Made by a program: the position numbers and the translations under genes | The notes under the pieces: model-generated | Told to the model about the DNA's origin: nothing | Database searches by the model: none | The model's input: only the letters and a program-made list of their open reading frames with translations | Assembly (NCBI GenBank): GCA_030550095.1 | Contig: JAUQQA010000002.1 | Location: 88,025 to 152,024 of the forward strand | Direction of reading: 5' to 3' | DNA from: Chloroflexota bacterium | GTDB lineage: Bacteria; Chloroflexota; Anaerolineae; J036; Brachytrichaceae | DNA: 64,000 nucleotides | Shown here: positions 13,657 to 30,970 of the stretch, piece after piece | Numbering within the stretch: the stretch's first letter is position 1 | Layout of the letters: every line of letters begins with the position of its first letter

Positions 13657-14280
13657 ATGCAGGTCAAAATCTGCGGCATTACCAACCTCGAGGATGCGCT
13701 GCTCGCGGCAGAGGCGGGCGCGGATTTTCTCGGCTTCATCTTCTACCCGCCAAGCCCACGCGCTGTAACGCCAGCGGTGGCGGCTGAGATCGTTGCAGCA
13801 GTGCGGCAAGCAGCGCCGCAGGTGCGCTGCGTGGGCGTGTTTGTGCAGCCCTCAGTGACGATGGTACAGCGTCTCCTTGACGAAGTGGGTCTTGACGCAG
13901 CGCAGCTGCACGGGGCAGATGCAAACATCGTGCGCGCGTTGGGCGGGCGCGCCTACTTGGCAGTGAAGACCTGGGACGAGACAGCGCAAGCCGCAGCCAC
14001 GCTGCCCAACGCCGATCTGCCTCAAGTGCTGCTGGATGCAGCACACCCTTCGCTTTGGGGCGGCACTGGGCTGCGCGCAGATGAGCATCTGGCGCGCGCG
14101 CTCGCGCGCACATGGCGGCTGCTTCTGGCGGGCGGGCTAACGCCCGAGAACGTCGCGGCGGTCGTGCAGCGTGTGCGCCCCTGGGGGGTTGATGTAGCAA
14201 GCGGCGTCGAATCTGCCCCTGGGCGCAAAGACGCGGCGCGTGTGCGCGCCTTTGTGCGGGCAGCAAAACAATGGGCATGA
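13657..14280 (+). CDS. trpF: Phosphoribosylanthranilate isomerase
   Basis: A 207-residue TIM barrel of normal TrpF length. It begins MQVKICGITNLEDALLA with the catalytic cysteine, has GFIFYPPSPR, a VGVFV strand, the AQLHG segment with the region of the catalytic aspartate, LLAGGLTPENV, and the phosphate-binding GVDVASGVESAPGRKD near the end. It catalyses the Amadori rearrangement in tryptophan synthesis. The ATG directly follows the TAG of suhB and its TGA overlaps the next gene, so translation is likely coupled through the operon. No other trp gene is in the window; the aromatic pathway is dispersed (aroKB, aroQ and pheA lie elsewhere here). Confidence 0.95.
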   Translation: MQVKICGITNLEDALLAAEAGADFLGFIFYPPSPRAVTPAVAAEIVAAVRQAAPQVRCVGVFVQPSVTMVQRLLDEVGLDAAQLHGADANIVRALGGRAYLAVKTWDETAQAAATLPNADLPQVLLDAAHPSLWGGTGLRADEHLARALARTWRLLLAGGLTPENVAAVVQRVRPWGVDVASGVESAPGRKDAARVRAFVRAAKQWA

Positions 14281-28221: not shown

Positions 28222-29733
28222 ATGCGGCTCTCGGCTTTGTTCTCTTCGACGCTGCGCGAGACACCAGCAGGAGTGACGCATGAAGGCTTGCGCCTCCTTG
28301 TGCGCGCGGGGTACGTGCGCTTGCTTGAAGGTGGGCAACGCGCTTACCTCCCCCTCGGTCAGCGCGCATTGAGCAAGCTCGCGCGCCTTTTAGAGTCGGC
28401 GGTGTGCTCAATAGGCGCTCAACCTGTTGCTGTGCCCGAAGTGCACGCCTTCGCACCGCTTGCGCGCAGCGTGGTTCGCTCGTATCGCCAGCTTCCACAG
28501 ATCGCTTACGCGCTCGAGCTTGGTGGCGCTGCACCCCGATTCCACCTATGGACGCTCACGCGCACGGCAGAAGAAGACGCACGCCTGCACGACTCCGTTC
28601 TTCAGGCGCTGCGCTCAGCGTTTGAGCAGGCAGGTCTCGTCGTGCAGCAAACCGAGCACGGCCTAGCCCGCTTCAACGACGCAGGCGAAGCGCTGCTTGC
28701 GAAGTGCGACACCTGTGGCTATCTCGATTTCGCGGACTGGGCACAGTTTGCACGCACTGCTGTTTCAAGCGCTGAAGCAAGGCTGCCATTGGAGCGTGTT
28801 TACACGCCCGCTTGCAAAACGATTGAAAGCCTCGCGCAGTTTTTGGGTATCCCCACCGCTGCAACGGCAAAGGCGTTGTTCTTCGTCGCTGCTTTCGAGC
28901 GCAACGAGCGGCTTGTGTTCGCTGTTGTGCGTGGGGATCTGCGGGTGAGCGAGGCAAAGCTGCGCAGCGCACTTGGCGCGCACGCGTTGCGCCCAGCGAG
29001 CGAGCTGGAGATCCGCAGCATCGGCGCTGAGCCAGGGTTTGCCTCACCGGTCGGTCTGGTGCGTGATGGGCGCTGGCTGCTGGTGGTGGACCCCAGCATC
29101 GTCGAGACACCCAACCTTGTTGCTGGCGCAAACGCGCCAGACTATCACTTGCGCAACACGAACTACGGGCGAGATTACACGGCTGATCTCGTCGCAGAGA
29201 TTGCGATGGCTCCAGAAGGAAGTCAATGTGCAAGATGTGGCGCACCGTTGCGTTGGGTGCGTGGCGATGCACTCGTGCATGAGCAGCAGCACGTCTATGA
29301 GGGGACATATCTCGACCCTGCGGGGAATGAGCGCACGCCTCTGCTACGGCTCTATAGCGCTGCACTCGATGACCTGCTCTGCGCGCTTGCTCTCACGTAT
29401 CGCGATGAATTTGGCTTAACGCTACCCACTTCTGTAGCGCCGTATCATGTTCACTTGGTCGTGTTGGGCAAGGACGAAGCAACCTATCGGCAAGCCGAAA
29501 CGCTCTACACCCAGCTCCTGCACCAGAACATCGAGGCACTCTTTGACGATCGCAGCGAATCGCCGGGCGTCAAGTTCAACGACGCCGATCTCATCGGCGC
29601 ACCAGTGCGGCTCACAGTGAGCGCGCGATCGTTGCAAGCAGGTGGCGTCGAAATGCGCTTCCGTGCCAAGAAGGAGACGATGCTCGTGCCCTTGGAGGCT
29701 GTGGTCGAGCGCGTAAGCGCAGCGCTTGCCTAG
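28222..29733 (+). CDS. ProRS-like protein with editing domain but lost aminoacylation motifs
   Basis: A 503-residue relative of bacterial prolyl-tRNA synthetase (usually about 570). The N-terminus (LRETPAG, YLPLGQRALSKL), two zinc-knuckle-like pairs (CDTC at 162-165, CARC at 336-339), the INS editing domain (about 196-330) and the anticodon-binding domain (about 405-500, DDRSESPGVKFNDADLIGAP) are all recognisable. The INS domain keeps the lysine (K217 in ATAKAL) and the GXXXP loop (GFASP, 272-276). The class II core is damaged: the stretch with GPTHEEV is missing, the motif 2 RDE is replaced (ALELGGAAPRF), and the motif 3 GIGVSR-type arginine is replaced (LYSAALDDL). It is unlikely to charge tRNA-Pro; editing or a regulatory role is inferred. 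TAAAAT (28207-28212) precedes the ATG by nine bases. Confidence 0.85.
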   Translation: MRLSALFSSTLRETPAGVTHEGLRLLVRAGYVRLLEGGQRAYLPLGQRALSKLARLLESAVCSIGAQPVAVPEVHAFAPLARSVVRSYRQLPQIAYALELGGAAPRFHLWTLTRTAEEDARLHDSVLQALRSAFEQAGLVVQQTEHGLARFNDAGEALLAKCDTCGYLDFADWAQFARTAVSSAEARLPLERVYTPACKTIESLAQFLGIPTAATAKALFFVAAFERNERLVFAVVRGDLRVSEAKLRSALGAHALRPASELEIRSIGAEPGFASPVGLVRDGRWLLVVDPSIVETPNLVAGANAPDYHLRNTNYGRDYTADLVAEIAMAPEGSQCARCGAPLRWVRGDALVHEQQHVYEGTYLDPAGNERTPLLRLYSAALDDLLCALALTYRDEFGLTLPTSVAPYHVHLVVLGKDEATYRQAETLYTQLLHQNIEALFDDRSESPGVKFNDADLIGAPVRLTVSARSLQAGGVEMRFRAKKETMLVPLEAVVERVSAALA

Positions 29734-30308
29734 CGGGCTGGTTGCCCTGCCAGCACCAGTTGCTCCCCACAGGGCGAGGCGCGTTCGCACCAATCCAACA
29801 CAACGTGAAGCTCGCCAATCACCTGAGCATTTGCCATGCGCGCTAGGTTATAGAGCGTAGGTTTCATGTTTTTGACCTCGTGCAAAGCGCCACGATCGGC
29901 GAGCCAGGTGAAGGGCCAAATTGCAGGCAGCGCGTAGAGCGGCACACGCATAAGGTGTGCCACAAGCGTAGCGCGCTCATCTACAGGGGTCAGCTCAAAG
30001 CCCCACAATTGCCCAAAAGGCGGCTTCTTGAAGCCAGGACCAGAAAGCCAAATGAAGCGATAGGGGGGCTCGTAAACCTGAATGTAGGAGCGTGTCGGGT
30101 ACTGATACCAGCCGAAACACTGCCGTGATTGGAAGCAGGAACCAACGCCTATAGGAGGTGGCGTTACCCAGCGCGTCTCCATGACCTCGCCGCTGCCTGC
30201 CAGCTCTGGATGGCGCAGCGGATCACTGACGATCTCAAATAACAGTTCACACGGCGCTGTGATCAGCGCCGTGACTGTTGCACTAGGAAATTTGATCCAA
30301 CGACCCAC
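29730..30308 (-). CDS. SRPBCC (START/polyketide cyclase-like) superfamily protein
   Basis: A 192-residue soluble protein with the helix-grip pattern: ATVTALITAPCELLFEIVSDP at the N-terminus, a central series of strands (GVGSCFQSRQCFGWYQYPTR, YRFIWLSGPG, LWGFELTPVDERATLVAHLMR) and a long C-terminal helix region (LYNLARMANAQVIGELHVVL). The fold binds hydrophobic ligands or lipids; no specific role can be assigned. The start is a GTG at 30308 close to a TTATAA. The 3' end overlaps the ProRS-like gene by four bases in convergent orientation. Upstream is a 335-base gap shared with the RRM gene. Confidence 0.8.
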   Translation of the reverse strand: MGRWIKFPSATVTALITAPCELLFEIVSDPLRHPELAGSGEVMETRWVTPPPIGVGSCFQSRQCFGWYQYPTRSYIQVYEPPYRFIWLSGPGFKKPPFGQLWGFELTPVDERATLVAHLMRVPLYALPAIWPFTWLADRGALHEVKNMKPTLYNLARMANAQVIGELHVVLDWCERASPCGEQLVLAGQPAR

Positions 30309-30643: not shown

Positions 30644-30970
30644 ATGAACACCAAACTGTATGTGGGCAATCTGCCCTTTTCGACTTCTGAGGCTGAATTG
30701 CGCGTCCTCTTTCAGCGTGTTGGCAATGTGCGGACCGTAACGATCCCTCTCGATCGTGAGACACAACGGCCGCGCGGCTTTGCTTTTGTTGAGATGGAAA
30801 CCCCGGATGAGGCGAGCGCTGCAATTCGCGCGTTCAATGGCCATCTCATGAACGGTCGTCCTCTCACAGTGAATGCAGCGCGCCCGATGGAGCCGCGCGG
30901 TAACAGTTTTGGTCGAGAGCGCAATCCTGCACGCAACGGCGGCCATCGCCGCAACTCTAATCGCTGGTGA
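30644..30970 (+). CDS. RNA recognition motif (RRM) RNA-binding protein
   Basis: A 108-residue single-RRM protein. RNP2 (KLYVGNLPF, residues 4-12) and RNP1 (RGFAFVEM, about 44-51) are perfect, and the tail (after about 85) is rich in Arg, Asn and Gly. This is the cyanobacterial/plant glycine-rich type of bacterial RRM protein, which binds single-stranded RNA and is often cold-induced. The ATG follows GGAAGG by about nine bases. The leader is long and AT-rich. The 3' end overlaps the convergent binding-protein gene by 14 bases. Confidence 0.93.
   Translation: MNTKLYVGNLPFSTSEAELRVLFQRVGNVRTVTIPLDRETQRPRGFAFVEMETPDEASAAIRAFNGHLMNGRPLTVNAARPMEPRGNSFGRERNPARNGGHRRNSNRW

Follow-up and report, generated by a model that had tools for sequence, protein, structure and literature searches.

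Introduction

Can a prolyl-tRNA synthetase (ProRS) that has lost its charging motifs remain of use to the cell, and in what role? The question is raised by a gene in a 64,000-nucleotide stretch of DNA from a Chloroflexota bacterium (assembly GCA_030550095.1, contig JAUQQA010000002.1, positions 88,025 to 152,024 of the forward strand; this whole stretch is the window below, and positions count from its first letter). A sequence-only reading had described the gene as a ProRS paralogue that kept its editing (INS) and anticodon domains and lost the aminoacylation motifs, which our Pfam searches and column alignment bear out. We propose that the product, a bacterial-type ProRS without aminoacylation motifs, probably acts as a stand-alone deacylase that clears Ala-tRNA(Pro) made by an archaeal-type ProRS.

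Results

Domains and residues of the window protein

The gene is, as the sequence-only reading had it, an intact open reading frame of 503 codons; it has an ATG start, a stop codon after the 503rd amino acid and no internal stop. A chance open frame is ruled out because a genome of the same genus carries a copy that is 64–65% identical. Pfam finds an editing domain (tRNA_edit) and an anticodon-binding domain (ABD; HGTP_anticodon) in the 503-residue protein; the class II core domain (PF00587) was not found by this search. The AlphaFold2 model has a mean predicted local distance difference test (pLDDT) score of 93.3, and a structural comparison at fold level assigns the modelled protein the overall fold of a class II ProRS. 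The features are as follows.

28222–29733, forward strand: whole gene, putative editing-only ProRS paralogue (Pfam, NCBIfam, AlphaFold2 model)
28222–28365, forward strand: N-terminal segment, residues 1–48, with T10, R12, P15, R28, A29 and G30 (alignment A2; column retention in eroded copies)
28443–28444, forward strand: junction of the 37-residue deletion (THEE/TxE loop), between residues 74 and 75 (alignments)
28521–28522, forward strand: junction of the 14-residue gap (motif 2 arginine loop), between residues 100 and 101 (alignments)
28705–28716, forward strand: first CxxC pair, C162/C165 (invariant in alignments A1 and A2)
28804–29163, forward strand: INS editing domain, residues 195–314 (PF04073, 89.6 bits against a cut-off of 25.5)
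28870–28872, forward strand: INS lysine K217 (kept in all 56 eroded copies)
29035–29049, forward strand: GxxxP loop GFASP, residues 272–276 (alignments)
29227–29238, forward strand: second CxxC pair, C336/C339 (invariant in alignments A1 and A2)
29332–29385, forward strand: motif 3 remnant, residues 371–388 (...LLRLYSAALDDLLC), with the arginine position at Asp384 (alignments)
29449–29718, forward strand: ABD, residues 410–499 (PF03129, 64.1 bits against a cut-off of 21)

We compared the protein with its intact relatives column by column, taking as reference the columns conserved in those relatives and numbering lost positions after the intact homologue P0005 (115 of the 121 proteins went into alignment A1). 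The THEE loop (T109–E112) is gone within the 37-residue deletion, which is the GPTHEEV stretch that had been read as deleted. R140/D141 and R151–F155 of motif 2 fall inside the 14-residue gap; the loss of the motif 2 RDE had been seen correctly, but the positions are deleted and not, as had been thought, replaced. The motif 3 arginine (Arg456) is indeed replaced, by Asp384. The protein thus has neither the TxE loop nor the motif 2 loop with its arginine nor the motif 3 arginine of a functional bacterial ProRS, and in this it differs from the INS-bearing enzymes of the E. coli and E. faecalis type. In total, 44 of 120 conserved columns are lost.

The alignment also shows what was said to be kept: the N-terminus, the INS domain with its lysine and GxxxP loop, the cysteine pairs and the ABD. 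K217, G272–P276, D290, H309, C162/C165 and C336/C339 are all retained, as are 25 of 26 conserved INS columns (the exception is D392, now Glu326), 19 of 19 in the ABD and residues near the N-terminus, the motif 1 proline P72 among them. K217 is, we take it, the lysine that is strictly conserved across the INS superfamily, and the protein carries it within a PF04073 match above cut-off. The importance of the INS-superfamily lysine is described in PMC10164551 (here as below, papers are cited for passages of their text). Routine annotation was expected to call the gene a proline-tRNA ligase. It does not simply do so: the NCBIfam bacterial ProRS equivalog scores 264 bits, far under its cut-off of 558, and the copy in the congener (P0003) is annotated 'His/Gly/Thr/Pro-type tRNA ligase C-terminal domain-containing protein'.

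A second ProRS in the same genome

The sequence-only reading held that a second, functional-type ProRS must exist, and asked for a genome search. The search found it on contig C49, which encodes a full-length archaeal-type ProRS (PF00587 and PF09180; TIGR00408 521.9 bits against a cut-off of 437) that aligns with the Thermus thermophilus ProRS across nearly its whole length; the window gene is therefore not the only ProRS of its genome. It is, however, the only PF04073 match in the genome (97.4% complete), which means that INS is absent from the archaeal-type enzyme.

A strict pattern search of the genome for tRNA-Pro gave zero matches; a later Rfam search gave 48 tRNA matches, 41 of them typed, with three tRNA-Pro (UGG, CGG and GGG). 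All three have C1:G72 and A73, the bacterial identity, with pairing judged by eye. We also considered a mistranslating tRNA-Pro with alanine identity (G3:U70) and rejected it, as the pair is absent, again by eye, from all three.

We propose the following course of events. The archaeal-type ProRS, having no INS domain, would release some Ala-tRNA(Pro). The ABD of the window protein would grip G35/G36 of the proline anticodon, and the CCA end could then reach K217 and the INS pocket, where hydrolysis would remove the alanine. In E. coli ProRS, INS is described as having no tRNA specificity of its own, editing there relying on the ABD, which reads G35/G36, and ignoring the acceptor stem (PMC3973320). 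Loss of the core therefore need not harm editing, and the dependence of INS on the ABD for tRNA specificity would explain why these two are the domains kept. In this way a redundant ProRS could be reduced to proofreading alone after another enzyme had taken over the charging.

The substrate might instead be tRNA(Pro) mis-acylated with cysteine, 2-aminobutyrate or serine/threonine. INS-superfamily relatives do vary in target (YbaK, cysteine; ProXp-x, 2-aminobutyrate; ProXp-ST, serine/threonine; passages of PMC11295145), but the INS domain here is of the ProRS type, which in E. coli clears Ala-tRNA(Pro) (PMC3973320, in part), and it retains all but one of the columns conserved in intact ProRS. 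We consider such a substrate, in place of alanine, quite improbable.

Could the protein still charge tRNA, either with its class II ligands at shifted positions or as the editing subunit of a hetero-oligomer with the other ProRS? Duplicated synthetases that share proofreading in trans are known from Anabaena, whose threonyl-tRNA synthetases T1 and T2 offer a parallel; there, however, T1 still charges and the editing of T2 is impaired (PMC4787780, in part), whereas here the editing copy has lost the charging motifs. The protein has physically lost the TxE and motif 2 loops, relatives of about 400 residues (see below) keep 20–24% of the conserved core columns, and the would-be partner is a distant type of ProRS that matches the window protein in the anticodon-domain part only. 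Continued charging is thus extremely unlikely.

Eroded copies across the class and their link with archaeal-type ProRS

The search for eroded copies across Chloroflexota that had been suggested found them in number, in a class-wide sample and a tree. A match to the window protein is present in 57 of 60 relatives, many of which carry both types of ProRS. The class sample comprises 259 genomes, 169 with the C-terminal domain of the archaeal-type ProRS and 90 with none. The bacterial-type gene was searched in 121 of the 169 (41 + 80; 48 not searched) and in 88 of the 90 (8 + 80; 2 not searched), with some fragmentary matches not fetched (G114, G136, G112, G205, G233, G239 and G240). We call a copy eroded when its core keeps under 80% of conserved columns. 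An earlier column set was partly defined on archaeal-type-negative genomes, and the count was then repeated with reference columns from 15 outgroup sequences only. Seven contig-edge copies (G001, G001b, G109, G127, G132, G147 and G231) and six same-family genomes from outside the class sample (G008, G013, G018, G019, G026 and G027) were dropped from copy and genome counts alike. Retention figures count gene copies (n = 56, two of them in G157) and association figures count genomes.

Among genomes with an archaeal-type ProRS, 53 of 91 have an eroded core, as against 2 of 65 in which no such enzyme was detected (Fisher P = 2e-14, without correction for kinship). A threshold of 0.75 gives identical counts, and one of 0.85 gives 54/91 and 8/65. 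In the two eroded genomes without a detected archaeal-type enzyme, G023 (91% complete) and G050 (79%), a search with the archaeal-type protein as query still gave no match. Both lie within the miss rate, because 14 of 88 archaeal-type-negative genomes (1 + 13, the latter at E 1e-15) show no bacterial-type ProRS either, a state that no cell can afford. Among 18 named genomes with an eroded copy (including the contig-edge L069 and the borderline L015), the archaeal type is present in 17, the exception being the Candidatus Roseilinea sp. SKYG71 assembly, whose match coordinates are the same as those of G023.

The window-type copy is the only PF04073 match in 12 of the 53 archaeal-type-positive eroded genomes. 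A bacterial-type match is missing from 20 of 80 archaeal-type-positive genomes (E 1e-15); 14 of these have another PF04073 protein and six have none, and in those six (G098 and G161, 93% and 100% complete, and G067, G088, G160 and G178) no INS-family proofreader was detected.

Some arrangements stand apart. Archaeal- and bacterial-type proS adjoin in G038, G073, G081, G108 and G141 (L176, L137, L131, L121 and L127), with 0.88–0.96 of conserved core columns kept in the bacterial-type copy. L025/G275 and G012 have two archaeal-type C-terminal domain matches besides an eroded bacterial-type copy. A contig binned as Heimdallarchaeota (L075, 1724–3325) carries a Chloroflexota-like eroded ProRS, perhaps through a binning error or transfer.

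What erosion keeps and removes

Across the 56 eroded copies the INS lysine, the RGD, both glycines of the GxxxP region and D356 are kept in all 56, and H375 in 55. ABD columns are kept in 49 to 56 copies and the three cysteine columns counted in 53 each. N-terminal residues also persist (T10 in 55, R12 in 53, R28 in 52), even in the forms of about 400 residues that we aligned, all three of which have a version of the N-terminal segment. Core residues survive in few: T109 in 7, K138 in 4, R140 in 12, M202 in 2 and F421 in 3. The 56 include two divergent copies, G130 and G157b, that have all seven key charging residues.

A few copies looked like cases of opposite wear, with the core mostly kept and INS at 0.65–0.88 (G130, both copies of G157, G005, G093 and G138). 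This group proved noisy: when the reference columns come from the outgroup alone, INS scores of 0.85 or less are found in many intact copies, and the group is not distinct.

The pattern of retention bears on a different role, that of a tRNA-binding regulator or tRNA holder whose ABD senses tRNA(Pro) and whose INS fold is a mere scaffold. Synthetase paralogues with other jobs exist, such as HisZ and YadB (PMC7373986, in part), and the N-terminal segment and CxxC cysteines, which have no known role in INS chemistry, are retained as well. The INS pocket is nonetheless the most constrained part, with its lysine, RGD and D356 in every eroded copy and the lowest median ratio of non-synonymous to synonymous change (dN/dS) in eroded pairs, and a scaffold has no need of the lysine. 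As the lysine and pocket residues stay fixed, this reading is the weaker one, and we think it unlikely.

Selection on the editing and charging domains

Rates were compared in non-overlapping pairs, 16 eroded and 43 intact for dN; INS dN/dS came from 13 and 42 of these, respectively. The median ratio of core dN to INS dN was 1.89 in eroded pairs (two pairs below 1) and 0.70 in intact pairs (five above 1; Mann-Whitney P = 2e-7). Median dN/dS for INS was similar in eroded and intact pairs (0.14 and 0.16), whereas that for the core was raised (0.27 and 0.11), and INS had the lowest median of the domains in eroded pairs. Editing is thus kept under constraint as charging is released. The overall median was 0.21 over the 16 eroded pairs. 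Between the window gene and its congener, dN/dS was 0.25 for the core, 0.07 for INS and 0.14 for the ABD, with dS saturated, and 0.16 overall (dS 1.73, near saturation). These ratios disfavour a pseudogene.

Repeated origin and the short end form

A tree of 177 rows on INS and ABD columns requires 17 state changes between intact and eroded, at least five of them forced by starred branches; 4 of its 15 outgroup rows landed inside the ingroup. A careful tree of 76 of those rows requires 11 changes, at least seven forced. A single origin of erosion is disfavoured, as the eroded copies formed one group in 0% of 200 bootstrap trees. Among 45 families, both states occur in four (f1, f20, f31 and f36), in different genomes, and in f49, as two copies in one genome; 17 have eroded copies only (as rows of the 76-row tree, some of these being one-genome families). 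An active site that has been deleted is hardly likely to be regained, and we therefore read the state changes as independent losses, barring transfer of eroded copies from one lineage to another.

Erosion ends in a protein of about 400 residues that consists of the N-terminal segment, CxxC, INS, CxxC and ABD. The best 120 matches listed for it are 378–489 residues long, with PF00587 in none (7724 of 8000 scored candidates passed), and those with names are called prolyl-tRNA synthetase, YbaK/EbsC family, His/Gly/Thr/Pro-type ligase C-terminal or hypothetical protein. One such form was modelled with a mean pLDDT of 94.5, and its best twelve PDB rows in Foldseek are bacterial ProRS.

All this bears on whether the gene is functionless, a redundant copy in decay that was caught before its loss. 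The core is relaxed, the whole protein evolves fast, and in the archaeal-type-positive genomes without a bacterial-type match the gene has either been lost or escaped the search. Decay is opposed by the 503 open codons, the low dN/dS of this pair and of the eroded pairs, the INS and ABD columns retained in nearly every eroded copy, the families with eroded copies only and the large family formed by the short protein. Decay is, in our judgement, very unlikely.

Genomic neighbourhood

The window gene converges on an unrelated gene at 29733–30308 (reverse strand), which overlaps its 3' end. The 192-residue product of that gene gave no match in Pfam and is 95% identical in the congener, against 65% for the ProRS paralogue. 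Among the open reading frames at 14001–44000 of the window, only the ProRS paralogue and this next gene are common to L006. Promoter and terminator scans at the window gene gave nothing above shuffles. A short RRM-domain RNA-binding protein (PF00076) is encoded at 30644–30970 (forward strand).

Discussion

A wider reading of the results, which we consider more likely than not though with less assurance than that of the single gene, is a new class of trans-editing proteins in Anaerolineae-type Chloroflexota, for which we suggest the name ProRS-ed. An editing-free archaeal-type ProRS would have let the native ProRS shed its aminoacylation site repeatedly (at least seven changes in the supported tree) and become a proofreader devoted to tRNA(Pro) that reads the anticodon itself. 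The steps of this erosion would still be visible, from point-mutated copies of 590 residues through copies of 500–560 residues to the fixed protein of about 400 residues.

Several observations weigh against a role of the window protein as a trans-acting deacylase. Between the two congeners the archaeal-type ProRS has a dN of 0.039 and the neighbouring gene one of 0.032, whereas the window gene has 0.275, so that its product diverges at seven to nine times the rate of either. The association of erosion with the archaeal-type enzyme is uncorrected for kinship, and an independent-pairs test on the tree was not significant and had too little power, with 1.4 to 1.6 informative pairs on average (supported branches); pairs contrasting in the archaeal type included no contrary pair, and those contrasting in erosion included one contrary pair in a few of 200 random pairings. 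Further PF04073 proteins, which could share the task, are present in 41 of the 53 archaeal-type-positive eroded genomes, and the six genomes without any PF04073 match indicate that INS-type proofreading can be dispensed with. Of the 56 eroded copies, 36 still have the motif 3 arginine, and since many copies retain some charging residues, those with mild erosion are not certain to be inactive. Finally, the open reading frame of one eroded copy, G079, is without most of the ABD (this copy was excluded from trees and rate pairs).

The closest parallel is ThrRS-ed of crenarchaea, a synthetase paralogue without aminoacylation that combines an editing with an anticodon-binding domain and serves as proofreader for ThrRS-cat, the product of another gene (passages of PMC7916415 and PMC11295145). 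Judged by its sequence, the window protein has the same composition, and its genome encodes a separate synthetase for charging. ThrRS-ed derives from another synthetase, and its editing fold is described as a structural homologue of D-aminoacyl-tRNA deacylases (PMC7373986); in the window protein the editing domain is INS (PF04073), with no ThrRS editing domain among its three Pfam matches up to E = 1, the proposed partner is an archaeal-type ProRS, and many stages of erosion are visible.

ProXp-ala is a free-standing INS-superfamily deacylase that serves a ProRS without INS, and the reaction proposed here, on Ala-tRNA(Pro), is the same (PMC3973320 and PMC10164551, in part). ProXp-ala, however, has one domain only and recognises the acceptor stem (PMC3973320), whereas the window protein has its own ABD and the full domain order of a bacterial ProRS. 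YbaK resembles the proposed editor as a trans-acting INS-superfamily deacylase for mischarged tRNA(Pro), but is a Cys-specific single domain that borrows its tRNA specificity from ProRS (passages of PMC3973320 and PMC11295145). With 503 residues and an ABD, the window protein falls outside this single-domain group.

Trans-editing as such is familiar, but an editor that derives from ProRS, carries an ABD and arose repeatedly would be new within the reach of our search. No earlier description of one was found in the openly licensed PMC literature, a scope that leaves subscription papers on INS evolution outside. Where relatives are named, the labels prolyl-tRNA synthetase, YbaK/EbsC family and hypothetical protein would call for correction.

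If the proposal is true, a ProRS cut down to its editing and anticodon domains would add a further branch to trans-editing, and proofreading alone would be enough to keep a synthetase gene under selection. How anticodon binding is coupled to the editing site over about 70 angstroms was called unresolved in 2013 and again in 2024 (passages of PMC3973320 and PMC11295145), and the eroded copies would then offer a natural series in which to study how binding of the anticodon drives editing at such a distance.
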